Source of the DNA: a virus
Length of the DNA stretch: 54,617 nucleotides
IMG/VR virus record: IMGVR_UViG_3300033146_001808
Span: 1 to 54,617 of that record
Strand: one strand, 5' to 3'
In this document: in pieces, positions 8,935-45,922 of the stretch
How the letters are laid out: the number at the start of each line of letters is the position of its first letter
How positions within the stretch are numbered: the first letter of the stretch is position 1
Program-made: the position numbers and the translations under genes
Notes under the pieces: model-generated
What the model saw: only the letters and a program-made list of their open reading frames with translations
Database searches by the model: none
What the model was told of the DNA's origin: nothing

Positions 8935-8935
8935 A

Positions 8936-11572: not shown

Positions 11573-11584
11573 TAATATTTTATA

Positions 11585-11592
11585 TATATTTG
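11585..11592 (+). promoter_or_regulatory. Candidate Bacteroidetes-type -7 promoter box upstream of the capsid genes
   Basis: The octamer TATATTTG matches the TAnnTTTG -7 element of Bacteroidetes housekeeping promoters. It lies in the 51-base spacer between portal and scaffold-like genes, 32 bases before the ATG. Transcription would start near 11597-11599, leaving a ~25-base AT-rich leader. No convincing -33 TTG is seen at the usual distance, so activity is uncertain in this AT-rich sequence. Confidence 0.45.
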
Positions 11593-11623
11593 TAATCTAA
11601 TTTTTAACCAAACTAAGTATAAG

Positions 11624-12673: not shown

Positions 12674-12691
12674 CTTTATTATAATTTTATT

Positions 12692-25192: not shown

Positions 25193-25203
25193 AATTGATT
25201 ATT

Positions 25204-26604: not shown

Positions 26605-26614
26605 ATATATAGAT

Positions 26615-28684
26615 ATGGGATTTAGAGGAATGATAATGCCCGGTAAACCAACGTTGTTTCCGGGAGTACCACAAGGAACAAGTATACGAGGTGGTGGAAA
26701 AAAAGGCTCGTCTACAAAGAAAGGAGAAACACTCGAATCTCCTAATGGGATGGTTAGGCAAACTACTGAATATAATATAGCAGAAGCTCAAATGAATCAG
26801 AGAAAAGTTTCACTGTCTAATAATTTATTTAAGATACTTAAAGAAAGGCATCATGGAGACATGAATGCTTATTCTAATGATCCAGAAGTGCAACAAGCAT
26901 TAGCTATATATCAAAATGAAAGAGCCAGTCTTGCTGCTTCAAGGAATCAAGTTGAATCTGAAAAGGAATATAAAGAAGCTGCTGTTTCCACTACTGATAA
27001 AAATAAAGGTACTGATAAGTATTATGTTGATGATAGAGGGCAAAGGCGATTTTTAGGTGTTGATGGTAGAGCATATACTAGTGGTCAGAAATATAAAACT
27101 AGAGATGGAAAAGTTCATACTGCTAAAAAAAGAAATGATCAAGATTATTTGACTTATGGAGAATGGTATAAAGTTAAAGAGAACAATGCCTCTATGGGTA
27201 AAAATAAATATGGTGTTTATACGGTAGAACAAAACGAGTGGACTACTTCTGTAGATTATAATAAAGATGAAATTTCAACTTATGTTACGGGCATTTTAAG
27301 TAAAGCAGGAAGTGATACTTATGCTGGTGGAACAAGTGCTCAAATGTTTGGTAATTCATTTATGAAAGTTAATGGTCACCATAAAACAGATTTGAAAAAA
27401 TTAACTCAAATGGCAGATGTTGTTAATGACACTTTACCTTCTAATACGAGAGTACAGATGAAACAAAAGTATTGGGAAGAGAAGCATGATGATGATGTTT
27501 TATTAAGAACTAAAACAGGTGGTCAATTTATTAATAAAAATCAGTATGCTATGATAAAGGATCAAATAAAGGAAGGAACTTCTGCTGCTGATTTAGGCAT
27601 TTCAAAAGAATTATATAGTCAAATTAAAAGTGGTAATAACACTTATGATAATGAGAATATTAAATTTGCTTTTTATACGCAAAATATAGTTGGAAAGACA
27701 GCTAATGCAATGGCTACTGATGAGAGAGGTGATTATAAATTCATAAAATTATCTGATTCAGAAGTAGGATTTAATATGGAGAGGAAGAAAGCCACAGAAG
27801 CTTCGGCTCACTCTGTTGCTGCTAATATTAATGCCGCTAATCCAGATAAGGCTATAAGGAAAACTATTTATCAAAAACAAGCTAATGGAAAGTACTTGGC
27901 AATAGATGTTGCTACAGGCATTTCTCATCCAGAAAGTATAGCTACTAAAAATGCTTATGATAAAGCTAATAAAGCTTTAGTGGCTGAACACTTTGATGAT
28001 GATGGAGAAGCTAAACTTGAAACATTTACAAGGAAAAATGCTGTATCTAATGAATCTAATATTATTGTATTACCAAATGGTCAATTATTAGAAGGTGATA
28101 TGCTTAATAAAATGTATGTAGTTCATTATAACGAAGCTACTGTTTCACATCCTTCATATAGAAAGAATAAAAAAACTGGTGAAGCTGAATACGATATACA
28201 TAGAGGAACTGATAAAGAAGGTAATGAATTATCTGATGGTAAGTTTACTACTGCTCATAATAAGACGGGTCACTATATGGATCTAGCAATGGATATTGAT
28301 GATTTCACTAAATTGCAGGAAACAATGGTTACATCTAAATCTGATTCAGGAAATAATTATGATGGAACAGGGAAGCCTCCTCCTGATGCTTATTATAAAG
28401 CAGGTCAAGATGAGCTTGTTGATGATGGTTTTATTTATAATTCTGTAAGTAAAGTTGGAGAAAACTTAAATATAGAACTTGGAGGTTCTGATGGTTCTCC
28501 TCAGAGTGGTGTTGTTTATTTTAGAGTTTATGTTCAAGATGATCAATTTGGTATTAATACAGAATATAAAGGTGGTGGAGCAACTGCTGCTAATAGGGAA
28601 TCACAAGATGCGGCTGCTCATGGTGGTCAATATATTAGAGCGAATGCTGATAATGCAATCATTAATGCAATTAGAACAAATTAA
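26615..28684 (+). CDS. Probable ejected cargo or internal virion protein
   Basis: A 689-residue protein of unknown family. The N-terminus is Gly/Pro/Lys-rich (MPGKPTLFPGVPQG, RGGGKKGSSTKKGE). A helical region (~60-110) is followed by mixed sequence rich in Lys, Asp, Tyr and Thr, with repeated turns like KYYVDDRGQRRF and DGRAYTSGQKY. The middle (~290-420) is helical and the end Gly-rich (LGGSDGSPQSG, KGGGATAANRES). No catalytic motif or membrane segment is visible. It sits directly before the giant helicase-polymerase gene and just 12 bases upstream of its start, consistent with a packaging partner or cargo. Confidence in the ORF is high; confidence in role is low. Confidence 0.5.
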   Translation: MGFRGMIMPGKPTLFPGVPQGTSIRGGGKKGSSTKKGETLESPNGMVRQTTEYNIAEAQMNQRKVSLSNNLFKILKERHHGDMNAYSNDPEVQQALAIYQNERASLAASRNQVESEKEYKEAAVSTTDKNKGTDKYYVDDRGQRRFLGVDGRAYTSGQKYKTRDGKVHTAKKRNDQDYLTYGEWYKVKENNASMGKNKYGVYTVEQNEWTTSVDYNKDEISTYVTGILSKAGSDTYAGGTSAQMFGNSFMKVNGHHKTDLKKLTQMADVVNDTLPSNTRVQMKQKYWEEKHDDDVLLRTKTGGQFINKNQYAMIKDQIKEGTSAADLGISKELYSQIKSGNNTYDNENIKFAFYTQNIVGKTANAMATDERGDYKFIKLSDSEVGFNMERKKATEASAHSVAANINAANPDKAIRKTIYQKQANGKYLAIDVATGISHPESIATKNAYDKANKALVAEHFDDDGEAKLETFTRKNAVSNESNIIVLPNGQLLEGDMLNKMYVVHYNEATVSHPSYRKNKKTGEAEYDIHRGTDKEGNELSDGKFTTAHNKTGHYMDLAMDIDDFTKLQETMVTSKSDSGNNYDGTGKPPPDAYYKAGQDELVDDGFIYNSVSKVGENLNIELGGSDGSPQSGVVYFRVYVQDDQFGINTEYKGGGATAANRESQDAAAHGGQYIRANADNAIINAIRTN

Positions 28685-28696
28685 AATATTTATAAG

Positions 28697-31600
28697 ATGA
28701 GTGATGAAATAAAGAATAGCGGTAATACTCCTGATGGAGGAGAAACTAAAAAACAAAAATCACCTGTACATGCTGGACCCCCTCAACAAGAAGGGGATCC
28801 AGATTTTGGGTTTATGGCATTGCAACAAAAAGGTGTTACTTCTGGAGATATGGGAAACTCTTCTTTTGTAGATAAGATTTATCTTGAAGATAGAGATAAG
28901 TTTGTTGGAAAATTAATAGAAGGTGGAGCTGATGAAGAGCAAGCTAATGTATTTTATGATGCAAAGCGTAATGAGTATGAGGGTTTAAAAAATGGATTTT
29001 ACACTAACGATGATGCTACAGACCTTAATGCAATGGAATACGGTCAGACATCAGTAGGAGCGTTTAAGAAGGACTTATACAATTCTTATTCTCAGAATAC
29101 GTCAATGGGTGCAAAAGGTTTTAAAGTAGCTAATTCTTATTCGTATTTAGATAGAAGTATTTTTAAATATAAAGATCAGAAAACTGGTAAGATGATAGAG
29201 AAGCCTTTATCGAGATATGATGCTTCTACAGATCCTAGTTTAGTAATAGATAAGGGTTCTGATGGAATGCCTTTTATTCGTCAATTACAAGCAGGAGAAA
29301 ATCATTATGAATTTGAAACTTATCATACTGGATTCCTTTGGAAAGATGAGCATAATGTTTATGGAGGAAATGCTTTAGAAGATGCTACATTAGGATTCAT
29401 ATCAGGTTTTACAACATTGCCAGGGAGAATAATTGCTGGAGGTGGTGCTGTTATTACAAGTGCTATATTTGGAGAGCCTACTGATAAAGATGGTACATTA
29501 CAAGATGTATATGATTTCTGGGATGATGCTACCAATATGGCTGACAGATTACAATACAGACCTTCTGATGAGGTTATGGAGGGTGGTTTTACAGGAAGCT
29601 TTGGAAGTTTTGCTTATGCTATGGGTAATGGTGTTGGAGAAATGGCAATGCAAATAGTGATGGCGACTGCAACAATGGGAGGTTCTTTAGAAGTTGGATT
29701 AGGTACAGGAGCATTAAGAGCTTTGGCTAAAAGAACTTTGATAAAAGAAGGAATGGAAGTTGGCGCAAAGAAAGCTATTGTTGAAGGATTAAAATATGTA
29801 GGAAAGAAAAATCTTGATGATGTAGGTAAAGCGGCTATTGCTGCAATGGACTCAGCATTAAAGAAAAGTGCTGGAACAGCAGTAGAGCAAGCGTTATCAA
29901 AAGCTGTAATGAATAAATCATTAATTGGTAAGGCTGGTAACTTCATGAATAATTATGGTGTTATAGGAGGCTTACAATCAAGTGGAGCTGTATTTGATGG
30001 AGCAATGCGTAATGGATTAGATAAGCGGTCTGCTGCAGGCTTAGCTATAGGAGCTGGAGCTATTACTTATGCTACAGAGAAAATGTTTTCTTCTGGGTAT
30101 TTAAACAGTATGATGGGAGCTGCAGATTTAGATAAAGCTGCAAGTAAATTTCTTATTAAAGAATTTGGAGCAACATCAAAAGAAGCTTTAGAAACTACTA
30201 TTACTAAAATGGGTAAAACAGCTCTTAAAGGTCCTAATGCAGTAGGTAGAATGACTACTAATTATACTGCAAAGATGATTAAGAAGTTTGCTGATAAAAA
30301 TGGAATAGGATATAAAGCTGCAAAAAAAATTCTTGGTAAAGCAAGAAAGGTACGTGATTTAGGAGATAAAACTATTGGTAAAGTAGCTACAACTATTGAT
30401 AAAATGACTACTGGCATTAATAAAGCAGAGCAAGATTGGGTAAAGAAAAATTATCTTGATGGACGAATGAATGTGCCTAATATTATTAAAGGTATGTTTG
30501 GTGAAGGTACACAAGAGGCTTCTGAAGAAGTTGGTAATATAGGACTTAATTGGGCTCATGATAATTTAAAGATGTCTTTTGGTGGTGGTACTATGGAAGA
30601 GTATCGAAAGAAAAAAGGATATATGGGTTACTTGTCTTTTAGAGATGAGGTTCTATCTTCTGCAACTGCTAATAATATATTTCAGAATTTTATTGGTGGT
30701 TTTGCTATTGGTGGATTTATGGCTGGTGTTAGTAAAACACAAGGTAATGGATATGCTGATGCTGATAATGCATTATTTGATATGGCTGCTCAAAGAGGTG
30801 AGTCAGAAAAATTAATGAAATCATTTTATGGTAAATGGAAAAATACAAATGCTAAAGCTTATGGTTCTACTGATCATGATTTAAGTATGAAAGTATTAAC
30901 TCATACAGATGATAATTCTCCTACAGTTAAAGTTGAAGAGGATTTTAGTTCTTATGGATTAGAGCAAGGCATGGAGCTTAAAACACAAGCTGATGTTAAT
31001 TATTATAATATACTTAAACAAATTAAATATTCTGAAAAGTTATATGAGGAAACTGGATTTACTCCAGGTTATCTTGATAAATTTAAAGGTCAAGAAAGTT
31101 TGTTTGAAAACGGAATGCAAATCTTTAGAGATTTAGATGAACTTAAAAAGAGTGCTGTTAAAACACAAGCTAAACTTAAAGATGAAAAGATCACTCCAGA
31201 ACAAAAGGAACAATTAGAGAAAGAATTGGCTCAATATGGAGAAGCTGAAAAGGTAATGCAAGAACGCTTTGATTATCTTATGAAGCCACAAGCTAATGGT
31301 TTTAGTAAAGCTTATGATGATACTTATAAGAATTCATTAGCATTAATGGAATTAGCCAATGATGAGGCTTTTTCTAATATGAAAGCTAATTATGAAAATG
31401 AAGGTAAGAAGTTTCCTGATAAATTAGGAAAGAAAGAACTTGAAGAGTTTCATAAATTAAGAGATAAATCATTAGGAGAGAATTTACAAAAGAGTTTTTA
31501 TCATGATATGATTAACTCTATTCGTTCTGTTAATGAATTTACTGATTCAAGAATTGAGAGAGCTAAAAAATTACTTGAAGATTCTAATATTAATGATGAA

Positions 31601-34600
31601 CAGAAATCAGAGCTTGATGGCATAATCGAAGATTTTGGAGCTACTTCTAATGACTATAAAAAGTCAATGGCTGATATTGATTCTAATTTAAAAATAGAAG
31701 CAGGAAAACTTAATAGCATGAAAGCAGAAGATGGTCCTTTTGATTCAAGTGCTATTACTGCATTATTAGATAGTCGTGTTAAACAACAGACTAACATGAC
31801 TACTAAATTAACCTCACAACTTTCTTCATTAGGAAAGTTTGCTGGTTTAGCATCATCAAATAAAGAGATTAGTTCTATAATGGATGATTTCACTAATGAA
31901 GCTGAAAACATTTTTTCTTCTATTAGAGATGATAATAAGTTCATGACTAAAGATGTAGTTAATGAAGAATTTGGAATCACTGAAAAAAAATCATTACCAA
32001 TAAAAAACACTTTTGCTAGAGTTGTAGGACTTAATGCACAGGATGAAAATGGTGAGATGGTTAATGTAGGTAATGCTTCAATAGAAGAGTTATCACAACA
32101 ATTAAGGATAAGTGGTACTAATGTAATAGATGTTTTTAATGCAGGTAGAATAGCTTCTGATGAAAATTTTAAAGAAGCAACTCGTATAGCTAAACAATCG
32201 GAGACAGAGGAGGGTCGTATTGCATTATTAAATGAAACTTATGAGTTAGTATATAAAAGTCATCTAGATTCCTTAGAAGCTTCTAAAGAGAATGATTATA
32301 ATGAAAATTTAATTAGTCTTATACAAGAAACAGAAGGAGTATTAAAGGATTTAGAATTAGCTAAGAAATCTTTGCTTGTTCGTAATAGAGTGTTTTATGA
32401 TATGACTCTTGATACTGATAAAGAAATTCATAGAGATCCTAAAGTAGATGTTCCATTAGATGATAAGTCTTATAATGAAATTTTAGAAAAAGTTAATCAA
32501 GCTGAAATTGATATTAAAGGGCATTTAGAAAACATGAAAAATGCTGCAGGAATTAGAGATTCTTATTTCGCTATAGAAAGACATACTACTACTATTCAAA
32601 ATAAGCATTCTTTATCTATCATAGTAGATGATGAATCGTTAAAGGATAAAGAGTGGGCTAAAGATATAGCTGAGAAGCTTGATAAGATTGAATTACCTCA
32701 TGTTGATATGGATGCTTATGGAACTGGATTAAGTAGTGAGGAACAAATTAAAATCGATAAGGCAGAGAAAGAGATAATGGGTTTAATGCAAATTATTCAT
32801 GATAATAGAAACGATATTAAATCGAAAGCTGTATTATCAAGTATATTGAAAAATTCTGTATTAGATGCAAATGCTATTACTAAATTTGGAGAACCTAGTG
32901 GAAAGAATTATTTAAAAGGAGCTGTTATTTTAGGCAAAAGAAAAATCGACATAATGAAACCATTAGTTTCGGAATCTAGTGATGTTAATTCTTTTACTTG
33001 TGTAACTAAAAACCCTTTTATAAATCAATTAAATTATGTTCATTTTGTTAACTTTTTAGTAACGAATTTATCAGATGTAAATCCTAAAGATATAGCTAGT
33101 ATTCGATACACAGTAAATGAAATGTTTTCTGATAATGATAAAATAGCTTTTTCTTCTACAGAACAATTAATGCAAGAAAATGCAGCTTTAGCTTTCCTTA
33201 ATGGAGGGGATGCTATCTTTAATGATATAATGAAGATAGAAGATGAAGCTCATAAAGATGTTGGTGTAGATATTAGACCTAGTTTTAACAATAAGCCCGG
33301 GTTTATGTTTTTAACTGGAGATGCTCAGACTGGTAAATCTGTTCAAATGACTCCTCAAATAGTTTTATTTAACTCTATATTAAATAAAGGTACTGATGGA
33401 GAACAACAAAATTATATGTTTGTAGGACTTAATGAAGAAGTTGTTTCTCATTTTAAAGATGAGATAGAGCAAATACATTTAGTTCAAGAGAAACTTGGTT
33501 TACAAAAAAGTGGAATGCAAGCAATGAAACATAATGATTTAATAACTAATGTTTCAAAAGATGATGTTAAGAATACTGTATTGATTGTTGATGAAGCAAC
33601 TATATTGTCTAATTCAGATATCAATAAGATTGCAAATATAACTGGAGATAGCAGAAAAGTTATGTTTGTGGGAGATGCTACACAAATGCCTGATTTTTTA
33701 AGTACTGATGCTACAGGTTTTTCTGATGCTTCTTCAATAGGTTTCCTAACAGTACCTACACAAAGAAAATTTGCTTCTAAAAATCCTGTATTAACTAATT
33801 TAATGGATTCTATTATTGGTAGTTTGAATGGTAATGGTTATAATAAATTTGCTCCAGCATGGAATGAAATTGATTCTAAGACAGGATTACGTTCTGGTAC
33901 TGAATATAAATCTACTACTGATGATATTTTCAAATCATTTAAAGAAAGAATAGATGCAGCTAAAGATGATATTGATCCTTCAGATGTTGGTTTATTATTT
34001 TTAAGTGAAAAGCATTATGAAGATTATAAGGCTTCTAATCCTGATGTGGAAAATTACGAAAAATATGTAGCTGTATTAGGTCACGATAAGACAGTAAAAG
34101 ATAAGAAATTTGAATCTATTCAAGGAGGTCGTAGGGGAGAAATTTATATAATGTTTGATGGTGATATGAGAAATTTTCAAGCTTACGCTAAGAAGAATAT
34201 TTTATATCCACAAAAATTAGCTAAATCAGCTTTATACACTATGGCTGGTAGAGCTTCTAGTTTTATTTCAATGGTTAGTGACGAATCTAATATAGCAGTT
34301 AAAAGGCCTGCTAATTTTAATTCTGATCCAGAAATACTAGAAGGTATTAAAAACAAAAATGAAATACAGCAGTATCTTAAAGATATAATGAATGCTGAAA
34401 AAGTTAAGGATTTAAAAGAACAAAAGATTAATGATGATGGAGAAGTTGATGATGATAGCGATAGCCCATTAAAAGAGACCGTTGAAAGGCGTGCTGTAAT
34501 AAATAAGATAGATGATATCAGAATTAAAACAAAGGATCTTAAATCTATTGATAAAGCTGATGGTAGTGGAGAAGAAAATTATTATGAAGGGAAGCTTAAT

Positions 34601-37600
34601 GGTAAAACTGTAAAAGTCCTTAGAACAACTTCTGTTGTTTCTAAATATGGAATAGATTTTCAATCTGTTATTGATTTTAATAATGGAAAAGACACATCAA
34701 AACCATCACTAGCTTTTTACAGTAAGCTTGGTCGTTCTGTTGACCTTATATTCAGAACAATAATGGATTCTAATAATAGGAATGTAGAATTTGAAGAAGT
34801 GGTTAAAGTTTTATCTGATGCTGATTTATATACTCATGATTTTGGTGGAAATAAAATTGATTTATATGGAAAGAATCCTGATCAAGTGATTCAAGATATA
34901 ATGAAGTATCTATTGGAAATTAAAACTGAGATAGAAGCTAAAGGCGAGTATCTTATTCCACTTGATACTAAATTAGCAACTACAGATATTGATATTAAAG
35001 ATTTTGATGGTGTTTCTGGAACTCCTGATTTAATGACAGTAGATGAGAAAGGTGTTGTTAGGATTTATGATTTAAAGAATAAGAAAGATGATAATGATTT
35101 ATCTAAAGGTTCTCAATATAATCATGAAGGAGCATCTGATATAATTCATTATACTAATCAAATTAGTGGTTATAAAGAGCTTTTGAAATCAATGGATGAT
35201 GAATTAAATATATCTAATGAAATGGGTTTAATTATTCATAGATATAAAGGTGATCCACCTAATAGTAAATCTAATAATGGAATGCGTAAATCAGTAAAGG
35301 TTGAGATTATACCTCTTACATATAAGCAAACTAATATAGGGCAAGCTATAGAAGATTTTAATAATAGAAAGATTAATAATCAATCGATATTATCATATCC
35401 AGATACGACTTCTATTAATGGTCAAGAAATAACTATTGGAGAAATTTATTCTGATAATAATAATATAGTTAAAGTTGATAAAATAATTGTTGATGAAGAT
35501 GGTAATGTTAGTATTTCAATTAGTGGAAAAGTTTTTGGTGGAGAAGAATTCTTAAATAAATACAGTTTATTTACACCTACTCACTCTCCAGTTATAGTAA
35601 GTAGTCACAAAGGTAAATCAATAACAGGAGAGCCTGCCGCGGTGTATTCTGCGAGCATATTTGCTGAACATAACGGAGCTTTATATTCAACTCCTGTTTC
35701 AATAGTTGTTGGAAAATCTGATTTCATTAAATTTAATGGACTTAAAATCTATGACTCTAAAAACAAAACAGAAAGTAAGGCTTTATCTATTGATGCTATT
35801 AAAGAAAAGATAATAAAAATCAAAGAAAAACTTGCTAATAGTGATGCTAAAAGAAAACTCGTTTATAAAGAAACTCAAAAATCTGCTGATAATAAAAATG
35901 ATTATAAGGGAGTGTTTGTGACAGAAGTTGAAGGAGATCTTAGTGATTATTTAGCTTCTAATTTAGAAAGAGCTGATACTGATTTTATAGATTCAATGAT
36001 AAAAATTGATAGAGACTTGACTAATGAAATCTTTACTCATATATCTACATTTGGATTACCAAATAGTTTTGATAAAAAACAAAATAAATGGGTTTCGTTT
36101 GATCCATTTCTAATGACAGACAAAGAGTTTAATGATTCTCTAACTGCTATTAAAGAAAGTGTTGATAATAGCGTTACAAGTGAGGATTTAGACAATTTAA
36201 TAGCTTATAACTTCGAGTTATGGAATATGCACAAGGTAGCTAGAGCAAGTAAAGCTAATGCTGTTAATGGAAGAATTGATTTCGGTACAATTAAATTAGC
36301 AACTAATTTAGATAGTCATATTATACAAAGGAAAGGCAACAGGCTTATTTCTATGAAAGAGTTTTCTGAAAATATTGATGATACTGATTTTAGTGTTGAT
36401 AGTAATACTCAATTAGAATTTAAGAAAGTGACCGGAACAGATGATGAACATGTTTTAGTATTAGAATTATTTAAGAATGGTGCTCCTTCTGGAGAGAGTA
36501 TTAGTGTTGTTACACCATTTGTTGGAGGAAAAAATCAAAGATTTAAAAGATTACTTGTTGATGAACTTGAAATGTATGAGAATGGAGATAATGAATCACA
36601 CCCATTTAAAACTTTTGCTCATAATTTAGTTTTAAATAATAGAACTAATTTTAAGGAACTTATTAAAAATGACAAGACAGCTCCTAAAGAGTTTAAGAAC
36701 ATCATATTTGATGATGAGAATAACAAGGTTGTTTATCATGGTAATGTAGCTTCTAAATTAAGAGAAGAAACAGAGAATAATACACTTATTGCTTTAATTA
36801 AATATTTGAAAGAAGATAAAGTAATTAGCAAGATGTATGTTCCTAAAAATTATGTTAATATTGATGATTTAAAAACAAACATTGTCGGTATTAATGCTAT
36901 TCCTTCTTATGTTAAGCCTACAAATTCTGAATTTATTCATGCTGATATTAAATCTACAATAGAAAGTTTAGATAATCCTAAGCCTCCTGTTAATAGTGGT
37001 AGCCAGAATGGAAGTAGAAGCGGTGGTCGAAGAAGTGCTATTAATAGATTTGGTAAGATAGAATCACAAACGGAAGCTGAGGCTAGAGTTGTAGTTTCTA
37101 AAATACTTGGTGAAGAATATGCTGATAAATGGTTAGGCTTTGAGAGAAGTTTGAAGTATGATGAAGTTGAAGTATTTGGATTAATGGCTAATGGTCGTAT
37201 AAAATTAAGTATTAATAAAGGTAAAGTTAATAAACTTACTGCAAGACATGAGATGTTTCACGTTGTTGATGATTATATTCTTAATGATAATACTAAAAAA
37301 CTTATTTATCAAGAAGTAAGAGATAATGTTCCAGCTTTAAAAAATTCATCTATAGATGATATTAAAGAGTTCTTGGCAGATTGGTATTCTGTACATGGAC
37401 AAGCTCAACAAGAGGGCTTAATTGATTCTGAATACATAGAGAAGTATGGTGCTTTATTAAATATGATTCAAGATAATTATAATATTTTTTCTGGAAAGAT
37501 CGCTCAATTATTTAATGACATTGAAGAAGGTAAATTCCAAAAGCCTGTTTCTGATTTATTAGGTAATGCTATTATTGATAATAATAATATTAGATTAAGT

Positions 37601-40600
37601 AAAAAAGGAACTCATAAAAAGAAAAGGCGAGAATGGAAGAATAATAAAAATCATAATCAGAACACTAATACAATAGGTAGTCAATTGTCTGATGAAGATA
37701 TTGCTAAATTAAAAGAGCGTCAAGAACGTAAAGTTAGAATAGAAGACCAAGTTAAGGTTCAAACTAGAGTTGAATTAGAAGAAGATGCCAAGGTTGTTTT
37801 GGATAGATTGTTTGGTAAAAACGCTAGATTATTACAAAAAGCAACGCAAGAAGTAATTGCTATATTTGGTTCTGAAACTAATCTTAATGGTAAAGATAGG
37901 ACCATTAATGATTTAATTCAAAATTTAACTAATGATACATTAGGTGTTGGATTTAATTCTAGATTTATTTTTAATGAATCATATAATAGAGAAATAGTTT
38001 TAGATAAAATTAATGATGCTGGTGAGAATATAGTTAAGCATACTTTAGATATTAAGAGTAGTGATTTCCCATTTATTAAGGATGATGATGATTTTGCTGC
38101 AGTATTAGTAATGCAAATATCTAATAGTATTCCATTAGCAAATGCTTTTTTACAAAGGGTTTTTCCTCATTATAATATGAAATCTAAAACGATAGCTGGA
38201 TTTACATCTTTACAATACACGAATAAAGAATCGGTACCAGGATCAGCAGTTCAAGATATGGCGAATTTTGCTTATGCTAATATTCCATTTGTAAATAGAG
38301 ATGAGAATGGGCCTTATTTATCAATTACTAATTTACCAGCTACGGAAGCTAAGAATATTCTTAGAGAGGCAGCAAAGATTGCAAGTGGTTTTTCTAATTC
38401 CAATACTACTTATTTCGAGGACATAGAAGAAGCGTTATATTCAATGAAACCTAATGATGGTTCTGCTAAAGATATTGCTTTAGATAGCATCTTACGTAAG
38501 CTTGTTGTGGGTTATGATAATTTAAGAGGTAATTCAGGTAATTTGAATACTTGGTTAGGTTCTTATAATGAAGTTTTAAATACAGATAATTTTGGAGAGA
38601 TAAAGCCAAGCCAACATGAATTTAATGCTTTAGCTGATGCTATGTTTTCTGATTTAGTAAGTTATGTTGATAGTCCTAAGATTAGAGCTAAATTTACTGA
38701 TAATGGAGAACATTATATTATGCTTGATAATTCTACTGCTTCAAACGATAAGCATATTTTAAAGGACAATATCGCTTCTAATCTTTATGCTAATGATAGT
38801 TTAAAAGAAGTTGTTATAAATACTACATCTAAAGAATCAGCATTAAATTCTGATAAGTTGAAATATAGATTTGAAACTGATGGCCTTTATCAAGAACAAA
38901 CTTTATTATTGAATGATATAGGTAATGGATATAGTTTTGCTAAAGTTGATAGTGGTGTTATAAGAACTCTTACTAAAATTGTTGGTCTTTCTAATTTAAG
39001 AACAGATGTATTTGAGAGATTAGCAAATAATAATGGAAAAGTGTCTAAAGTTAAAGGCTTTAAAAATGATGGTATTTCTATTGATCCTAATATGACTATT
39101 AGTGAATTGATAGCTACAACTTTTGGTAACTTTTATGAGGTTGTTCAATTGCAATCAAGAGTAGAGAGAGAATTATTGGCTTTTGCTGATGAGCAAACTA
39201 AAAATAATGAAGAACTTAGTGCTATACTAGCTGATTCAGATCCTTCAAAATTACCTACTCATCAATTAGCTCAATATGAGGCTTATTATGATGGTCGTAA
39301 TGAAATAATTAAAAATGTTTATGAATCGACATCTTCTAATCTTAAAGAATTTAATTCATCTATAAATCTTAAAGTTGGTAATCAGAATATAGATACAGTA
39401 GCTCAAATTGTTGATATTAATAATGGTGTTAATCCAAATGAAGCTAGATATCCTAAGATTACAGATTACTTTAATCATATAGATATGCTTGCTAAATTAA
39501 ATAATAATGATTTAGTAGCTTATTCTTCAAGAACTCAATATATAGCTAATAAAGCTTTTTATTCTTTAACAAAAAGTAATAGAATAGAAGCTGTATCTAT
39601 TAATGATACTAACACTATGGCTGGTATTGATAAAGTAGGTAAGCATGAGCTTGTAAATACTCATAGGTCTAAGATATTAAATAAGAAGTATAATGCTCTT
39701 AAAAAAGCTGAGAGAGTTAAATCATCAGTCTTTAATGAGAATGGTACAACGAATATCCCTTTTATTAGTACTAATAAGGATAAAGCTTTATTTGGATTTG
39801 AAGGAGTAGTACTTGTTCCTGGTATTGAGAATGAATATACTGCTGTTGATAGTATGAATCCTCATGATTACATGCAATTGACAATGGGTTTATTCTTAAA
39901 CAAATTGAATGATACTGGTGGTAAAGATATTTATTTACCATTAGGTCACTCTTCAAGAACTTATTTTGCTAAATCTAAATTTCATAAAGCTGATTCTCCT
40001 TTTACTGTAAAGATTGAAGGAGATAAGTTAGTAGATTTTCAAATTGATAAAAATAAGTTTGTTCCTATTCTTAAAAAGAATTTTAATTATAGTAATAAAT
40101 TAGCAGAGAATTCTAGGAATAGATGGAGGGAATATTTAAAAGATAGTCCTGTATTTGATAAGGAAGTTAATGATTTAATAAATAGTGATATTCCTGTTTC
40201 TTCTAGTAAGTATGATATTCTTAAAAAGAAATCTAGAATTATAACCACATTGGGCGAAAGTCATAGTGAGAATGAGCTTTTAGATATGCCAGGGATGAAA
40301 CGTATTCGTAATTCTGGATTAATAGAAAATAGTGATTATTATATAGCTAGTAAAACAAATGAAGATACTGGAGCTATTAGTTATTTCTTAGAATTTGGTA
40401 ATGAAATTAATTTCGAGACTTTTAAAAGTAATAAAGATGTTGAGGAAAGAGATGGCATTAATGAGAATAGTTTAATCTATACTAGATCTAATTATAGATT
40501 ATTATTTAAAAATAGAAATGGTAGAGTATCTGAAGAGACATTTGATTTAATTATGCAAGAAGAAATGAAGCATAATAAAGAATTAAGTAATCTATTAGAT

Positions 40601-43600
40601 AAAGATTCTTATGGTATTGATGACTTTTATAAAAACTGGTTAAAGAAAAATCATCCTAATTCTTCTCAAACAAGTAAGCTTAGTGCTAAGACAGTTAAGA
40701 AAGATAAAGATGGTAAAGTTGTAAGTACTAAATATCATTATAATCCAGTATATCAAGGATTAGCTTTAGCGAATTCAATTTTAATGCCATCAATTCATAG
40801 ATCTATTGCAGGAAATGAAACTGGATTTAAACATTTTGGAGATTTCACTAAGAGGTATGATCCTAATAAGACTCCTACAAGTGGAATTATGAAAACTAAA
40901 GATGGCCTTGGTAGTAAGTTTAATGTAATTATAATGAATGATACTACATTAGGAGTAATACAATATAATATGAGTGGTACTGTTGATAAAAATGATGGTG
41001 GTGCAATTATGTTTGTAGGTTTTGAACAATTAATGCGTAAATCTTATGGAGGAAAGTATTCTTCATTTGATAAAACTGCTTATAAGCCTCTTATTACTGG
41101 AGGAGATGCTATGACAGGTATTAATACACAAATGAAATTTAGTGCTGATGCTTATTCTCCAAGTATATTAAAAAATAATGAAAAATTAAGAGAACAACAA
41201 GAACAGTTATTCGAACAATGGATTAAAGCTTTTGAAAAAGAAATTGATTCTGATCGATTACAAGGTAAAGTTAAGGAATTATATAATGATTTAAAGACTC
41301 GATATCCTAATGATATTCATACTCGTTCTGAACGATTTATTGAAACTTTTACCAATAAAAAAAGAAGACATCTTAGATTTGGAGGTGAAGATTTGACTAC
41401 AACTCAAATTAGAGATATTAATGGATTATTAGATTTAATGAGAGAGAGTGTTATTATGGGTGCTGTACCTACTACTTCTGTTAAAACAGGAGCTTATAAT
41501 ATTACTGCTCATAAATTTGGCAAAGAAAGAGGTGAGGATTTTAATAACATTAAACCTATAGTAGTAGATTCTGATAGATTTGGATTAGTTAATAACTATG
41601 ATCAAGATGTTAGTGAAAATGCTACTGTAGCGGCTCCTAATCAAGCTTTGTCTCATATAGGTGTTGGTAATCCAGAAATCGCATTAGCTGTTAATCAGGC
41701 TATGTCTGGCTTATTGAATGAAGGTATCAATGATTTATATAATGAAATAGGTGTTGATAGAAATCCTAAAAATTGGAAATCTTCTGATATCGATAAATTC
41801 AAAAACTGGATTAGAAAAATTGGATTAGAAAATGCGGAAGCTAATCAAGGAGGTGCTGGTATTGTTGAAATCCTTTCTACTAATGGTAGCCTTGAAACAT
41901 TACAAATAGCACGTAAATTAGAGCAATATTTTGTTTCTAATCTTAATAAACATGTTCAACCAAGGTTTAAAGGTACTCGTTTAATTCAAGGAGATGGTTC
42001 TGAATTTACTATGTATGACGAAAAAGATGCTAATGGGAATGTTATTGGAACATTAACAGAGCAAGATTTAGAAAAACATCTAAAGAAAAACCCTGATTTA
42101 ATTTATGAAAAAAGATTAACTGACCCATTTGCTTTCATGCAACATGATGCAGATGGTAATTTTACACCAGCAGAAGTAGGTACGCAATTTTTATATGCTA
42201 AAACATTTGGTATTAAAGAGGGGGAACAACCTAGAGATGGTTATATATTAACTATGCATAATGGAGCAATGCTCGATTATCATAGCGTTACTTCTAAAGG
42301 CGATAATATAGAAGCTAATGTAAAAGATGGGTTTCAAGTTGGAATGAAAATTAAAATTAGTGATACTCCATTTTTAAGAGTATCGGATTTAGTGAAAGAA
42401 GGTTTTGGAGTTGATGATGGTTATGTTATTTTAACTGATGATAATATTGATGATTATGCAGAAGATTTTGCTGCTTATTTAGAGAATTATCATGAATCAT
42501 TAGAAATTGCATTAACTCGTGTACCTTATGATACAGTTGCTCTTGGTTTTGTTGCTCGTATTACTCAATTCACTTGGGGTAATGGTAGTACTATATATAT
42601 CAATCCTAAAGACAACTTACGTACTGGTGGTGACTTCGATATTGACCAATTAAGTTCTTATCATAATGAGTATGAGCATTACAGTATTAAACCTAAATTT
42701 AATAATAAAGTAGAAACTTCTCAAAGTGCTGCTCATAAGAATACTGTTGTAGATTCTATTAAGAATTATTATAAAAATCCAGAGAATGTAGGTGCTATTT
42801 ATCAAAGTACTGGTGTTGAAGATATCAGACAAGGCATTAAAAAAGGTAAAAAAATGTTTTATGAAAAATATCATAAGAAGCCTAAAAGTGCTGATAATTT
42901 AAGAATACATTCTATAGGTGGAGTTATAGGAATGGAAGAACTAGCTAATGAAGGAGCCAGTGCTGTTTCTATATTTGCTTTGTCGGCATCTTCATTTGGA
43001 GTAATTAATCAATTAGGAGATGTGGACTATATTAGTGATAGTTTCATTAATATGAATAAAGATGAAATGCTATTTAAATCTCAACTTATTGGTGGATTTT
43101 TACAAGCTTCTCTTGATAATAAGAAAGAACTTATTCTTGGAGAATTTAATGTTCCTGCTTCTGCTGATGGGTTATTATTAGGTTTAGCAACAATGGGGCA
43201 TGATTATGATGAGATATATACTATAGTTAATTCTTATGCAGCACAAGAAATGTTTAAGCAATTAAGAGATGCTACTAAGCTTGGTCAAAAGACTAAGAGT
43301 ATCCCTGAATTAATAGTTGAACTTTCTAATTATGTTAATTCTGTTAATCCAGAGAGTATTAAAGATATTGATAGATTTATGAGTGATTCTATTAATGGTC
43401 TTAAAATACCTGATGCTTATAAAAACAGTAAGCAACCAATAGAGGATGCTTATGATGTATTAAGTAATGAGAATTCTACTGTTGAAGAAAAAAGTAAAGC
43501 GGCTGATGCGTTAAGTCGTGTAGCTAGATCTATTTTTGGTCAAAAAATTAAAAATACTAAAAAGCTTGCTGCTTTAAATAAGAAGAAAGAATTGTTAAAT

Positions 43601-45922
43601 ACAGATGATTCTGAAGCTGTAGAGAAATTGCAAGATGAAATAAATACGGTTCAAGATTCTATTGATATTCTAGCTAAATATAGTGGAATAGTAAAAGTTG
43701 TCGAGAACTATAAAGACAATAAAGAAGTTGTTGAATTATTACGTAAAGCTCATATTAATTCAGAAGTATTAAGAAGGCTTGGTAAAATAATGAAACTTCG
43801 TGGAGGTATTGATTCTGATCATAATGATTCATTAATGAGAACTAAAGATATTGAATTATCATTAGGAATGAAAATTGATGAATTTTTAAGTAGAGAAATT
43901 TCTGATGAAGATGGTTCAGAGATTACTACTATAGATACAGAGGATTCACATATCGACTTCTTTATTAATAATAGTAATGCTTTTATTAAATCAACTGCTG
44001 ATAGTAAAGAAGGTCTTATAGAATTAGAAAAAGATATTTTCAATGCTGCTAATATTTCTGAGATACTTAATAATAATGATTATTTATTTGAATTACTTAG
44101 CGCGGCAAATAATAGAATTGAAGCTGTAGAGAATGTTTTCTTTATAAATAAGCCAATGAATAATATGGTTGATTTATTAAGTGGAGCTCAATTAAGGGCT
44201 TCTCTTGAATACAAGGAACAATACAAAGCCAAAGATGGTTTCATGCAAGAAGTGTTGTTAGATTTCTTCTTTAAGCAGAATAATAATGGAGTAGACAATA
44301 TTTCACTTAATGTTCCTAATTTAGATATTGATGGTAATTATGTAGCTACTGATTTTGCTAATTACACTAATCTTGATATGGGTAATGCTACTCATAGGAG
44401 TAAATTCAAAAAACATTTCCCTGCTGTAGTAATGGGAATGGTAGAAGCTGTAGAAAATAATCCTGAACAGATTAAAAAGTACATGGATGCTATTGGTATT
44501 AATGTATCATTACAGGAAGCTAGAAATATTAAGAAGAGTAAATTCTTTGCTTTATTAGAGCGTAATGGTAATGATGGTTTTAAAAAGCTTAGTGTTAATC
44601 CTAGTGTTAATTATGATGAAGCGGCTACTGCAGAAGCACATCAAGAGTTTGCTAAATTACCAGATAATGTTAAATTTTTATTCGAAATGTATCATGTATT
44701 AGAATCTAAGATGGTATATAAGGATAAAGGATTTAGTAATATTGTAAGTAATGATTTATCTATTAAGATGGAAAAGGTTTTTAAAGATAAACATGATAAT
44801 CTTAATGCTATGTTTGATAGATATAATTCAAATGATTCTAATGACCCTCATACTATTGATGCTGTTCATTATTTAGGTGTTAATGCTAAGATTAGAAGAT
44901 TTGCTAGCAAGAAGAGAGGTGATTATCCTAAGTTTGTTACAGAGAATATTAGTAACAGTAGATACAATAAGATAAATAAACCTTTTATTGATACTGGAAT
45001 TAAAAATAGTGATGGTACTCGTAAAAATTTAAGTCATAATGTATCTCATTATATGGGAATTTATGATACTAGTACTACTATGAATACTGTAAAAGGGATT
45101 CAGATTGTAAAAATTGATGAAGCAAATGATATTAAGCTTGATATTATTAGAAACAAAAAAGATAGAGAGCATAATGATCATATCGTTATCAAGACAGTAA
45201 ATCCTCATCATTATAAAGCTGGTGTTTATTTAGATGATAGTGGTAGAGCAGTAGTTGTAAAACCACAAGGAATATTTGCTATTACAGTAACTCCTGCAAT
45301 ATTAACTGATGAACTTACTACTGAATTTGAATATCTTAAAAATGCTGAAAATCTTAAAGTATCAATTGATCTAGAGCTTAAGCCTTTTAATTATGGAAGA
45401 TCTAGTGATAAGGGATTAATAGTAGAAGACTTTATCCAGAGTGATAGGAATACAATGTATATACCATTTGAAAGGTATAATCATTTTAAAAATTCTAATA
45501 GCTTTGGAGTGATGCACAATGCTAAAGATGGTGTTACAAAGGATGATGAAGAAGCTGATAAAGCTTTACGTCCAGAGTTTTCTTATAAAGATGATAATGA
45601 TGAATTTTATCATATTAAGTTAACATTATTTGCCAATAAATCTTTTGATAATTTAAAAGCAGAAGTAGATGAAATTAATAATGTTGAAGATTTAATTACT
45701 TATTCAGGTCTTGATATAGAAACAGAAGATGGAGTTCCTGTATTTGGCAAAAATAAAAATCAATCTTATATTAAAACTTATACTGATTCTGATAGAAAGT
45801 ATTTAGAACCTAAGCGTTGGACCTTTGTAAAGGTTGAAAAGATCAAAAAAATAGGTAAAAAGGAATCTGTAGGAAATATCATTGTTAAGAAAGTTATAGA
45901 GAATAACTTATCTAATTGTTAA
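28697..45922 (+). CDS. Giant virion protein: helicase, nuclease, metallopeptidase and RNA polymerase in one chain
   Basis: This single 5,741-codon frame has no interruption and would make a protein of roughly 640 kDa. In order: a soluble N-terminus; Gly/Ala-rich apolar stretches at ~230-260, ~300-335, ~415-470 and ~655-680 (NFIGGFAIGGFMAGV) that may enter membranes; a GEGTQEASEE element near 600 of the kind seen in large polyvalent phage proteins; coiled coils from ~740 to ~1,500; an SF1 helicase (1541-1852); a PD-(D/E)XK nuclease (~2108-2127); a zincin (HEMFH 2851-2855, E2891); and an RNA polymerase core (DFDID 4646-4650). The last ~1,100 residues include coiled coil and mixed domains I cannot assign. 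crAss-like phages package a large single-chain RNA polymerase that transcribes early genes after ejection. Having helicase, nuclease and peptidase in the same chain is unusual. It starts at an ATG 13 bases after the preceding stop. Confidence 0.9.
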   Translation: MSDEIKNSGNTPDGGETKKQKSPVHAGPPQQEGDPDFGFMALQQKGVTSGDMGNSSFVDKIYLEDRDKFVGKLIEGGADEEQANVFYDAKRNEYEGLKNGFYTNDDATDLNAMEYGQTSVGAFKKDLYNSYSQNTSMGAKGFKVANSYSYLDRSIFKYKDQKTGKMIEKPLSRYDASTDPSLVIDKGSDGMPFIRQLQAGENHYEFETYHTGFLWKDEHNVYGGNALEDATLGFISGFTTLPGRIIAGGGAVITSAIFGEPTDKDGTLQDVYDFWDDATNMADRLQYRPSDEVMEGGFTGSFGSFAYAMGNGVGEMAMQIVMATATMGGSLEVGLGTGALRALAKRTLIKEGMEVGAKKAIVEGLKYVGKKNLDDVGKAAIAAMDSALKKSAGTAVEQALSKAVMNKSLIGKAGNFMNNYGVIGGLQSSGAVFDGAMRNGLDKRSAAGLAIGAGAITYATEKMFSSGYLNSMMGAADLDKAASKFLIKEFGATSKEALETTITKMGKTALKGPNAVGRMTTNYTAKMIKKFADKNGIGYKAAKKILGKARKVRDLGDKTIGKVATTIDKMTTGINKAEQDWVKKNYLDGRMNVPNIIKGMFGEGTQEASEEVGNIGLNWAHDNLKMSFGGGTMEEYRKKKGYMGYLSFRDEVLSSATANNIFQNFIGGFAIGGFMAGVSKTQGNGYADADNALFDMAAQRGESEKLMKSFYGKWKNTNAKAYGSTDHDLSMKVLTHTDDNSPTVKVEEDFSSYGLEQGMELKTQADVNYYNILKQIKYSEKLYEETGFTPGYLDKFKGQESLFENGMQIFRDLDELKKSAVKTQAKLKDEKITPEQKEQLEKELAQYGEAEKVMQERFDYLMKPQANGFSKAYDDTYKNSLALMELANDEAFSNMKANYENEGKKFPDKLGKKELEEFHKLRDKSLGENLQKSFYHDMINSIRSVNEFTDSRIERAKKLLEDSNINDEQKSELDGIIEDFGATSNDYKKSMADIDSNLKIEAGKLNSMKAEDGPFDSSAITALLDSRVKQQTNMTTKLTSQLSSLGKFAGLASSNKEISSIMDDFTNEAENIFSSIRDDNKFMTKDVVNEEFGITEKKSLPIKNTFARVVGLNAQDENGEMVNVGNASIEELSQQLRISGTNVIDVFNAGRIASDENFKEATRIAKQSETEEGRIALLNETYELVYKSHLDSLEASKENDYNENLISLIQETEGVLKDLELAKKSLLVRNRVFYDMTLDTDKEIHRDPKVDVPLDDKSYNEILEKVNQAEIDIKGHLENMKNAAGIRDSYFAIERHTTTIQNKHSLSIIVDDESLKDKEWAKDIAEKLDKIELPHVDMDAYGTGLSSEEQIKIDKAEKEIMGLMQIIHDNRNDIKSKAVLSSILKNSVLDANAITKFGEPSGKNYLKGAVILGKRKIDIMKPLVSESSDVNSFTCVTKNPFINQLNYVHFVNFLVTNLSDVNPKDIASIRYTVNEMFSDNDKIAFSSTEQLMQENAALAFLNGGDAIFNDIMKIEDEAHKDVGVDIRPSFNNKPGFMFLTGDAQTGKSVQMTPQIVLFNSILNKGTDGEQQNYMFVGLNEEVVSHFKDEIEQIHLVQEKLGLQKSGMQAMKHNDLITNVSKDDVKNTVLIVDEATILSNSDINKIANITGDSRKVMFVGDATQMPDFLSTDATGFSDASSIGFLTVPTQRKFASKNPVLTNLMDSIIGSLNGNGYNKFAPAWNEIDSKTGLRSGTEYKSTTDDIFKSFKERIDAAKDDIDPSDVGLLFLSEKHYEDYKASNPDVENYEKYVAVLGHDKTVKDKKFESIQGGRRGEIYIMFDGDMRNFQAYAKKNILYPQKLAKSALYTMAGRASSFISMVSDESNIAVKRPANFNSDPEILEGIKNKNEIQQYLKDIMNAEKVKDLKEQKINDDGEVDDDSDSPLKETVERRAVINKIDDIRIKTKDLKSIDKADGSGEENYYEGKLNGKTVKVLRTTSVVSKYGIDFQSVIDFNNGKDTSKPSLAFYSKLGRSVDLIFRTIMDSNNRNVEFEEVVKVLSDADLYTHDFGGNKIDLYGKNPDQVIQDIMKYLLEIKTEIEAKGEYLIPLDTKLATTDIDIKDFDGVSGTPDLMTVDEKGVVRIYDLKNKKDDNDLSKGSQYNHEGASDIIHYTNQISGYKELLKSMDDELNISNEMGLIIHRYKGDPPNSKSNNGMRKSVKVEIIPLTYKQTNIGQAIEDFNNRKINNQSILSYPDTTSINGQEITIGEIYSDNNNIVKVDKIIVDEDGNVSISISGKVFGGEEFLNKYSLFTPTHSPVIVSSHKGKSITGEPAAVYSASIFAEHNGALYSTPVSIVVGKSDFIKFNGLKIYDSKNKTESKALSIDAIKEKIIKIKEKLANSDAKRKLVYKETQKSADNKNDYKGVFVTEVEGDLSDYLASNLERADTDFIDSMIKIDRDLTNEIFTHISTFGLPNSFDKKQNKWVSFDPFLMTDKEFNDSLTAIKESVDNSVTSEDLDNLIAYNFELWNMHKVARASKANAVNGRIDFGTIKLATNLDSHIIQRKGNRLISMKEFSENIDDTDFSVDSNTQLEFKKVTGTDDEHVLVLELFKNGAPSGESISVVTPFVGGKNQRFKRLLVDELEMYENGDNESHPFKTFAHNLVLNNRTNFKELIKNDKTAPKEFKNIIFDDENNKVVYHGNVASKLREETENNTLIALIKYLKEDKVISKMYVPKNYVNIDDLKTNIVGINAIPSYVKPTNSEFIHADIKSTIESLDNPKPPVNSGSQNGSRSGGRRSAINRFGKIESQTEAEARVVVSKILGEEYADKWLGFERSLKYDEVEVFGLMANGRIKLSINKGKVNKLTARHEMFHVVDDYILNDNTKKLIYQEVRDNVPALKNSSIDDIKEFLADWYSVHGQAQQEGLIDSEYIEKYGALLNMIQDNYNIFSGKIAQLFNDIEEGKFQKPVSDLLGNAIIDNNNIRLSKKGTHKKKRREWKNNKNHNQNTNTIGSQLSDEDIAKLKERQERKVRIEDQVKVQTRVELEEDAKVVLDRLFGKNARLLQKATQEVIAIFGSETNLNGKDRTINDLIQNLTNDTLGVGFNSRFIFNESYNREIVLDKINDAGENIVKHTLDIKSSDFPFIKDDDDFAAVLVMQISNSIPLANAFLQRVFPHYNMKSKTIAGFTSLQYTNKESVPGSAVQDMANFAYANIPFVNRDENGPYLSITNLPATEAKNILREAAKIASGFSNSNTTYFEDIEEALYSMKPNDGSAKDIALDSILRKLVVGYDNLRGNSGNLNTWLGSYNEVLNTDNFGEIKPSQHEFNALADAMFSDLVSYVDSPKIRAKFTDNGEHYIMLDNSTASNDKHILKDNIASNLYANDSLKEVVINTTSKESALNSDKLKYRFETDGLYQEQTLLLNDIGNGYSFAKVDSGVIRTLTKIVGLSNLRTDVFERLANNNGKVSKVKGFKNDGISIDPNMTISELIATTFGNFYEVVQLQSRVERELLAFADEQTKNNEELSAILADSDPSKLPTHQLAQYEAYYDGRNEIIKNVYESTSSNLKEFNSSINLKVGNQNIDTVAQIVDINNGVNPNEARYPKITDYFNHIDMLAKLNNNDLVAYSSRTQYIANKAFYSLTKSNRIEAVSINDTNTMAGIDKVGKHELVNTHRSKILNKKYNALKKAERVKSSVFNENGTTNIPFISTNKDKALFGFEGVVLVPGIENEYTAVDSMNPHDYMQLTMGLFLNKLNDTGGKDIYLPLGHSSRTYFAKSKFHKADSPFTVKIEGDKLVDFQIDKNKFVPILKKNFNYSNKLAENSRNRWREYLKDSPVFDKEVNDLINSDIPVSSSKYDILKKKSRIITTLGESHSENELLDMPGMKRIRNSGLIENSDYYIASKTNEDTGAISYFLEFGNEINFETFKSNKDVEERDGINENSLIYTRSNYRLLFKNRNGRVSEETFDLIMQEEMKHNKELSNLLDKDSYGIDDFYKNWLKKNHPNSSQTSKLSAKTVKKDKDGKVVSTKYHYNPVYQGLALANSILMPSIHRSIAGNETGFKHFGDFTKRYDPNKTPTSGIMKTKDGLGSKFNVIIMNDTTLGVIQYNMSGTVDKNDGGAIMFVGFEQLMRKSYGGKYSSFDKTAYKPLITGGDAMTGINTQMKFSADAYSPSILKNNEKLREQQEQLFEQWIKAFEKEIDSDRLQGKVKELYNDLKTRYPNDIHTRSERFIETFTNKKRRHLRFGGEDLTTTQIRDINGLLDLMRESVIMGAVPTTSVKTGAYNITAHKFGKERGEDFNNIKPIVVDSDRFGLVNNYDQDVSENATVAAPNQALSHIGVGNPEIALAVNQAMSGLLNEGINDLYNEIGVDRNPKNWKSSDIDKFKNWIRKIGLENAEANQGGAGIVEILSTNGSLETLQIARKLEQYFVSNLNKHVQPRFKGTRLIQGDGSEFTMYDEKDANGNVIGTLTEQDLEKHLKKNPDLIYEKRLTDPFAFMQHDADGNFTPAEVGTQFLYAKTFGIKEGEQPRDGYILTMHNGAMLDYHSVTSKGDNIEANVKDGFQVGMKIKISDTPFLRVSDLVKEGFGVDDGYVILTDDNIDDYAEDFAAYLENYHESLEIALTRVPYDTVALGFVARITQFTWGNGSTIYINPKDNLRTGGDFDIDQLSSYHNEYEHYSIKPKFNNKVETSQSAAHKNTVVDSIKNYYKNPENVGAIYQSTGVEDIRQGIKKGKKMFYEKYHKKPKSADNLRIHSIGGVIGMEELANEGASAVSIFALSASSFGVINQLGDVDYISDSFINMNKDEMLFKSQLIGGFLQASLDNKKELILGEFNVPASADGLLLGLATMGHDYDEIYTIVNSYAAQEMFKQLRDATKLGQKTKSIPELIVELSNYVNSVNPESIKDIDRFMSDSINGLKIPDAYKNSKQPIEDAYDVLSNENSTVEEKSKAADALSRVARSIFGQKIKNTKKLAALNKKKELLNTDDSEAVEKLQDEINTVQDSIDILAKYSGIVKVVENYKDNKEVVELLRKAHINSEVLRRLGKIMKLRGGIDSDHNDSLMRTKDIELSLGMKIDEFLSREISDEDGSEITTIDTEDSHIDFFINNSNAFIKSTADSKEGLIELEKDIFNAANISEILNNNDYLFELLSAANNRIEAVENVFFINKPMNNMVDLLSGAQLRASLEYKEQYKAKDGFMQEVLLDFFFKQNNNGVDNISLNVPNLDIDGNYVATDFANYTNLDMGNATHRSKFKKHFPAVVMGMVEAVENNPEQIKKYMDAIGINVSLQEARNIKKSKFFALLERNGNDGFKKLSVNPSVNYDEAATAEAHQEFAKLPDNVKFLFEMYHVLESKMVYKDKGFSNIVSNDLSIKMEKVFKDKHDNLNAMFDRYNSNDSNDPHTIDAVHYLGVNAKIRRFASKKRGDYPKFVTENISNSRYNKINKPFIDTGIKNSDGTRKNLSHNVSHYMGIYDTSTTMNTVKGIQIVKIDEANDIKLDIIRNKKDREHNDHIVIKTVNPHHYKAGVYLDDSGRAVVVKPQGIFAITVTPAILTDELTTEFEYLKNAENLKVSIDLELKPFNYGRSSDKGLIVEDFIQSDRNTMYIPFERYNHFKNSNSFGVMHNAKDGVTKDDEEADKALRPEFSYKDDNDEFYHIKLTLFANKSFDNLKAEVDEINNVEDLITYSGLDIETEDGVPVFGKNKNQSYIKTYTDSDRKYLEPKRWTFVKVEKIKKIGKKESVGNIIVKKVIENNLSNC
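33302..34290 (+). other. SF1 helicase domain within the giant protein
   Basis: Walker A is GDAQTGKS at residues 1541-1548. Walker B is VLIVDEAT at 1628-1635, with D1632 and E1633. Motif III is GDATQMP at 1659-1665, whose Gln after GDxx is typical of RecD/Pif1/Dda-like superfamily 1 helicases. A motif V-like QGG element is at 1809, and the motif VI counterpart ALYTMAGRAS carries arginine finger candidate R1852. All motifs are in the right order and at helicase-like spacing, so this is an apparently intact ATP-dependent translocase rather than a fragment. Direction and substrate cannot be read from sequence. Confidence 0.8.
34960..35160 (+). other. PD-(D/E)XK (RecB-like) nuclease motif within the giant protein
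   Basis: G2108-T-P-D2111 followed 14 residues later by D2125-L-K2127 (core: GTPDLM, then RIYDLKN) is the GxxD...DxK signature of RecB/Cas4-type nucleases. A third acidic ligand was not identified with certainty. It lies ~260 residues after helicase motif VI, the same order as in AddA/RecB helicase-nucleases, so the two domains probably work together on DNA ends. Confidence 0.65.
37060..37560 (+). other. Zincin metallopeptidase-like domain within the giant protein
   Basis: H2851-E-M-F-H2855 preceded by an LTAR strand, and a downstream E2891 in KEFLADWY, form an HExxH...E zinc site with catalytic Glu2852. Basic, low-complexity linkers flank it: a Gly/Ser/Arg-rich one at ~2767-2785 and a Lys/Asn-rich one at ~2970-2995. 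A second HExxH domain occurs in the 1,601-aa protein downstream. A self- or partner-processing role is inferred, not shown. Confidence 0.6.
42480..42700 (+). other. RNA polymerase catalytic core within the giant protein
   Basis: The stretch TGGDFDIDQL with D4646, D4648 and D4650 corresponds to the NADFDGDQM magnesium-binding loop of the beta-prime double-psi beta-barrel. It is preceded 38 residues upstream by R4608-V-P, matching the conserved RxP strand that precedes this loop in cellular enzymes at nearly the same distance. The loop Gly of DFDGD is Ile. The DxDxD form is what crAss-like virion RNA polymerases carry. A beta-like half should lie upstream, probably starting after the zincin (~3000), but its lysines were not located with confidence. 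Confidence 0.75.

Follow-up and report, generated by a model that had tools for sequence, protein, structure and literature searches.

A giant crAss-like phage protein with a predicted helicase in the same chain as zincin and RNA polymerase modules

The window, that is, the whole stretch of DNA analysed here, spans 54,617 bases and is the entirety of its virus record. Genes for a terminase large subunit (TerL), a portal and a major head protein, all of crAss type, stand in the order common to Crassvirales. These structural genes match PHROG profiles phrog_6681 (E = 7.7e-37), phrog_6547 (1.2e-29) and phrog_11589 (1.8e-9), and TerL matches Crassvirales by tblastn. The contig is a fragment of a crAss-like phage. 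Directly after the structural block lies a gene for a single giant chain, followed further downstream by a gene for a second subunit. The features are as follows.

6820..14140, plus strand: terminase large subunit, portal, one unassigned gene and major head protein, crAss type (PHROG profiles)
24143..28684, plus strand: three genes (24143, 25195 and 26615) occupying the position that the cargo genes gp45/gp46 hold in crAss001
28697..45922, plus strand: giant chain, 5,741 aa, about 640 kDa (ORF)
29369..31234, plus strand: conserved N-terminal region, aa 225-846, common to the relatives' giants
33014..34420, plus strand: predicted SF1 (Pif1/RecD-like) helicase, aa 1440-1908 (Pfam, HMM, motifs)
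34664..35371, plus strand: probable PD-(D/E)XK (RecB-like) nuclease, aa 1990-2225 (motifs)
37004..37576, plus strand: predicted zincin 1, aa 2770-2960, with HEMFH at 2851-2855 and candidate third ligand E2891 (clade HMM)
40739..44698, plus strand: predicted Crassvirales-type RNA polymerase core, aa 4015-5334 (clade HMM, profile-profile comparison)
42632..42646, plus strand: putative catalytic DFDID loop, D4646/D4648/D4650, aligned with the DFDID of phi14:2 gp66 and others
48551..53356, plus strand: second subunit, 1,601 aa, with predicted zincin 2 (HELGH at aa 257) (clade HMM, BLAST)

Judged by gene position alone, the three genes at 24143..28684 would be counterparts of the crAss001 cargo genes; family searches with them gave no match. 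The Bacteroidota promoter pattern occurs in the window at a frequency not above chance.

The initial annotation had described an unbroken 17.2-kb frame, and the frame is sound. It is one ORF of 5,741 codons that begins with ATG, has zero internal stops and contains no in-frame TAG; at the window's composition, a stop-free run of this length would arise by chance with a probability of about e^-548. The GC content at codon positions 1, 2 and 3 stays near 0.43, 0.31 and 0.14 throughout all 17 kb, as it does in neighbouring genes, so the frame does not change. As the window is a single metagenomic contig, the frame might be suspected of uniting separate genes through misassembly, or its domains of being chance motif matches. 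We regard this explanation as very unlikely in either form, since the codon periodicity is uniform, eight other complete chains share the domain order, and HMMs built with the window left out score its domains far above shuffled controls.

The loop TGGDFDIDQ begins at residue 4643 (numbering from the ATG throughout), and its initial reading as a polymerase loop was borne out by alignment with named Crassvirales polymerases, with which the window shares R-x-P, D-x-D-x-D and D-N-x-K blocks. The clade HMM (its E-values, here and below, were computed for a file of 17 proteins) matched cr130_1 gp79 (6.3e-18), cr272_1 gp23 (1.1e-13), crAss001 gp50 (7.5e-12) and phi14:2 gp66 (1.9e-8), the matches covering the DxDxD loop or conserved stretches nearby. 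A profile-profile comparison gave 97.6% with E = 3.5e-12, and the leave-window-out HMM gave 310 bits, the best of 100 shuffled controls reaching 0.8 bits. A profile of the five named polymerases alone matched the window weakly, with the order correct. The polymerase profile found chance matches only among PDB sequences, and the AlphaFold2 model of the region, where two double-psi beta-barrels in one chain would be expected, was poor (mean pLDDT 42) and had no significant Foldseek match in the PDB. On this sequence evidence the region is a Crassvirales-type polymerase, with DxDxD placed in a core homologous to those of phi14:2 gp66 and crAss001 gp50.

The HEMFH zincin of the initial annotation is likewise recovered. 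RHEMFH begins at residue 2850 and EFLADWY at 2891, and the clade HMM matched crAss001 gp47 (8.8e-13), cr130_1 gp79 (9.7e-11) and cr272_1 gp23 (1.6e-6); in crAss001 gp47 the counterpart is the C-terminal HEAFH region. The leave-window-out HMM gave 78 bits (best of 100 shuffled controls, 4.9 bits), and HExxH together with the downstream glutamate E2891 is conserved in the relatives and in crAss001 gp47. By motif criteria, zincin 1 is a predicted zincin metallopeptidase. The second-subunit HMM matched phi14:2 gp65 (1.8e-17) and crAss001 gp49 (6.2e-7), and the 48551..53356 product matches by BLAST the C-termini of three relatives' chains (G014, G012 and G015); what is a separate gene in the window is thus the C-terminal part of the chain in relatives.

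Helicase motifs I, II, III, V and VI are all present and in order, as GDAQTGKS at 1541, VLIVDEAT at 1628, VMFVGDATQMPD at 1655, SIQGGRRGEIYI at 1807 and YTMAGRASSF at 1847. Pfam AAA_19 matched the window above its cutoff (E = 6.5e-6; 26.8 bits against 25.1), and AAA_30 did so in relatives G004 and G012. The leave-window-out HMM gave 112 bits, with 4.8 bits for the best of 100 shuffled controls; together with the motifs and AAA_19, this upholds the SF1 assignment made initially. The solved structures nearest to the helicase family profile in the PDB are of Pif1 type, with RecD weaker. An alignment of five rows was dropped as a search profile because it was too variable. In ten contigs the helicase sits at the equivalent place and retains its ATPase and motif VI residues. 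The helicase profile found it in frames of 6,416-6,812 aa in six further records, two of these alike. Neither the giants from nine named phages nor the large proteins of crAss001 and phi14:2 gave a match, the profile's sole match in a named phage being a separate 399-aa frame in FPSV-S29; nor was a helicase found in polymerase giants G018-G020. Our literature search found no report of an SF1 helicase inside giant crAss polymerases, although Figure 3 of PMC7886860 could contain one.

Beyond the helicase lies a probable RecB-like nuclease, recognised by its motifs: SGTPDLM at 2107 (GTPD with D2111), YDLKN at 2124 (D2125-x-K2127) and QISGYKELL at 2155 (QxxxY). GTPD, YDLK and QISGY start 567, 583 and 614 residues past the start of Walker A. 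The initial annotation had named this site, and the motifs are indeed there; however, the window's stretch has no Pfam match and only chance-level PDB matches, and the family profile found only chance matches among PDB sequences. The AlphaFold2 model, with a mean pLDDT of 34, was too poor to be informative. Relative G021 (L147) carries the same motif set at the equivalent place, with PDDEXK_1 under its cutoff (E = 0.015). Profile searches thus recovered the helicase, zincin and polymerase that had been proposed, but the nuclease only below threshold and in a relative. The site appears intact only in the window and in G021. In G022, G024 and G025 the aligned place is without the key D/K residues, in a poor part of the alignment, and in the remaining relatives the site is not recognisable, again in a poorly aligned region. 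Conservation of the nuclease together with the helicase was therefore rejected, and with it the view of the nuclease as a fixed part of the machine; because most relatives are without a recognisable site, it is, as far as the alignments indicate, an optional accessory within the family. PDDEXK domains have been described in some large crAss transcription proteins, alongside multidomain transcription genes. A PD-(D/E)XK-like motif, GTADI...HDFKTK, occurs in two giants without a detected helicase (G018, L114-L118; G019, L133-L136), where it sits C-terminal to the polymerase, unlike the window's site.

The region at aa 225-846 was recovered by a leave-window-out HMM (49 bits, E = 1.6e-15) and had no detectable match in the named giants. 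For the N-terminal ~1,400 aa as a whole, no link was found to crAss001 gp47 or the named giants; the N-termini could not be aligned, and common ancestry with the named giants could not be demonstrated for this part.

Relatives were gathered by a terminase-guided scan, by searches within the records so found, and by a second scan with the polymerase. Single-protein scans of the viral contig collection with the RNA polymerase, helicase or TerL as query gave no matches, and neither the giant nor the N-terminal half of a relative matched GenBank phages by tblastn. Nine further uncultured phages carry the helicase fusion at the equivalent place. In eight of them the chain is complete (6,387-7,505 aa) and has the same domain order, and in the ninth (G004) it is cut off at the contig end. 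The longest chain seen here, 7,505 aa, is of the same type and has two HExxH sites (G015, 29478-51992, L122-L123). A terminase tree separates the ten helicase carriers, as a single group, from ten named phages (support 100/100), and giants G018-G020 lie outside that group. The window TerL was not placed within the named Crassvirales families sampled; the tree was built without Intestiviridae, Crevaviridae, zeta and epsilon, and its root is uncertain. The lineage could be a new family inside the named ones or beside them, both being compatible with the tree. Because the carriers form a separate side and four families were unsampled, we call the phage crAss-like and do not assign it to a named family.

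Homologues of the zincin, polymerase and second subunit are virion proteins in crAss001 (gp47, gp50 and gp49) and phi14:2 (gp66 and gp65). The three crAss001 proteins were detected in virions by mass spectrometry (PMC10172136), and g065-g067 in the phi14:2 record are annotated from MS/MS proteomics. In these phages the proteins are separate (1,349-2,412 aa in crAss001; 1,421-2,180 aa for phi14:2 gp65 and gp66) and without helicase, whereas in the window the zincin and polymerase are fused. The Oafivirinae proteins cr130_1 gp79 (5,801 aa) and cr272_1 gp23 (6,386 aa) are closer in form: zincin precedes polymerase in a single chain of comparable length, the gene lies after the structural genes, and another zincin-bearing gene follows it. 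They differ in that no helicase was found in them and in that they read in-frame TAG codons, which the window's giant does not; the named giants at L002 (7081-24483) and L004 (23237-42394) contain 74 and 37, respectively. Given these two fusions in named phages, neither the size nor the joining of polymerase and zincin is new, and the helicase is the new part of the chain. The novelty initially seen in the joint modules thus holds for the helicase but not for peptidase plus polymerase. Exceptional size was also overstated, as a review gives lengths of up to ~6,000 aa for giant crAss polymerases (PMC10136315) and the longest relative here exceeds the window's chain. The same applies to a 'one-molecule' takeover machine, since a gene of its own encodes the other zincin-bearing subunit, the homologue of virion-associated phi14:2 gp65. 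What remains of the initial interpretation is one real crAss-like chain with helicase, zincin, polymerase and probably nuclease.

Other giant phage proteins offer parallels. Phage N4 (Schitoviridae) vRNAP is also a giant ejected chain with a polymerase and an HExxH domain (PMC12633501); unlike the window's, it is a T7-like single-subunit polymerase (PMC5512222). Its length is about 3,500 aa, and the sources drawn on here describe no helicase in it. The resemblance is best taken as analogy, not membership. The P23-45 tape-measure RNA polymerase (5,002 aa) is a giant virion chain whose polymerase is homologous to cellular enzymes (PMC10770324) but, unlike the window's, fused to the tail tape measure of a long-tailed Thermus phage. 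Polyvalent proteins, which occur in phages and conjugative elements, are defined by several enzymatic domains, often including zincins, combined in a single chain that is encoded near virion genes (PMC5512222), and the window's chain has this form. One 12,242-aa plasmid polyvalent protein carries a UvrD-like helicase (PMC5512222); in the classes quoted from that source, however, helicases are mostly SWI2/SNF2 and a crAss-type polymerase is not among them.

We consider it fairly probable that the chain is a crAss-like virion RNA polymerase enlarged specifically in this lineage, in which a gp47-type zincin and a gp50/gp66-type polymerase are joined to a Pif1/RecD-like helicase and a probable nuclease in the first half. 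By analogy with its virion homologues, it would be packaged in the head, pass through the tail as a threaded chain before the DNA, be delivered into the host at invasion and refold in the cell, where the polymerase would transcribe early genes. Since the homologues are virion proteins, ejection before the DNA and transcription of early genes are the likeliest roles. The ATP-driven helicase might act on this DNA too as it enters, by drawing it into the cell, by opening it so that initiation can occur or by removing proteins bound to it; its conserved ATPase and covalent link to the polymerase suggest some part in DNA entry or transcription. The zincin may cut the chain into parts, at assembly or following entry, and the nuclease would serve as an accessory. 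That helicase and polymerase of one injected chain act jointly, mechanically coupling DNA entry to first transcription throughout the lineage, is a possible but doubtful extension.

Cleavage may go further, and the chain may be a polyprotein from which the zincin or zincins release the helicase-nuclease, the polymerase and other parts as individual proteins, with fusion serving only to co-package equal numbers. Zincins are frequent in polyvalent phage proteins; in phage P1, DdrB is processed before it is packaged, its own metallopeptidase domain being the suggested cutter (PMC5512222). In crAss001 these modules exist as separate proteins and are therefore able to work apart. Yet no cleavage site is known, and cryo-EM of recombinant N4 vRNAP places the HExxH domain inside the full-length chain (PMC12633501). 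We regard this reading as a live but less likely rival. Another use of the helicase-nuclease would be as a virion-carried weapon or shield, uncoupled from transcription, that degrades host DNA or blocks host recombination nucleases as do polyvalent conflict proteins. A RecB-like motif set beside an SF1 helicase resembles helicase-nuclease enzymes, and polyvalent proteins bear many such domains (PMC5512222), but most relatives have kept the helicase and lost the nuclease site or have it in unrecognisable form. Cutting is therefore not the conserved job, and we judge this role improbable.

The chain suggests that the virion polymerase of crAss-like phages serves as a platform gaining and fusing other enzymes. 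If active, a helicase motor joined to a polymerase that is ejected would offer a testable explanation of how, without host factors, the first DNA is drawn in and opened. The modules are spread over three proteins in crAss001 and over two (giant plus second subunit) in cr130_1 and the window, and they form one chain in the eight relatives; these forms permit the order of fusion to be reconstructed.

Elsewhere in the window, the gene at 46520-48541, which lies after the giant and before the zincin-2 gene, encodes a product that scores below threshold against CHAP (PF05257; 21 bits, cutoff 26), suggesting a candidate cell-wall enzyme. A short protein at 1032-1424 resembles an M15-type peptidase, as judged by eye, and 2730-5636 is a tail-fibre gene (phrog_3904) with collagen-like Gly-X-Y stretches.
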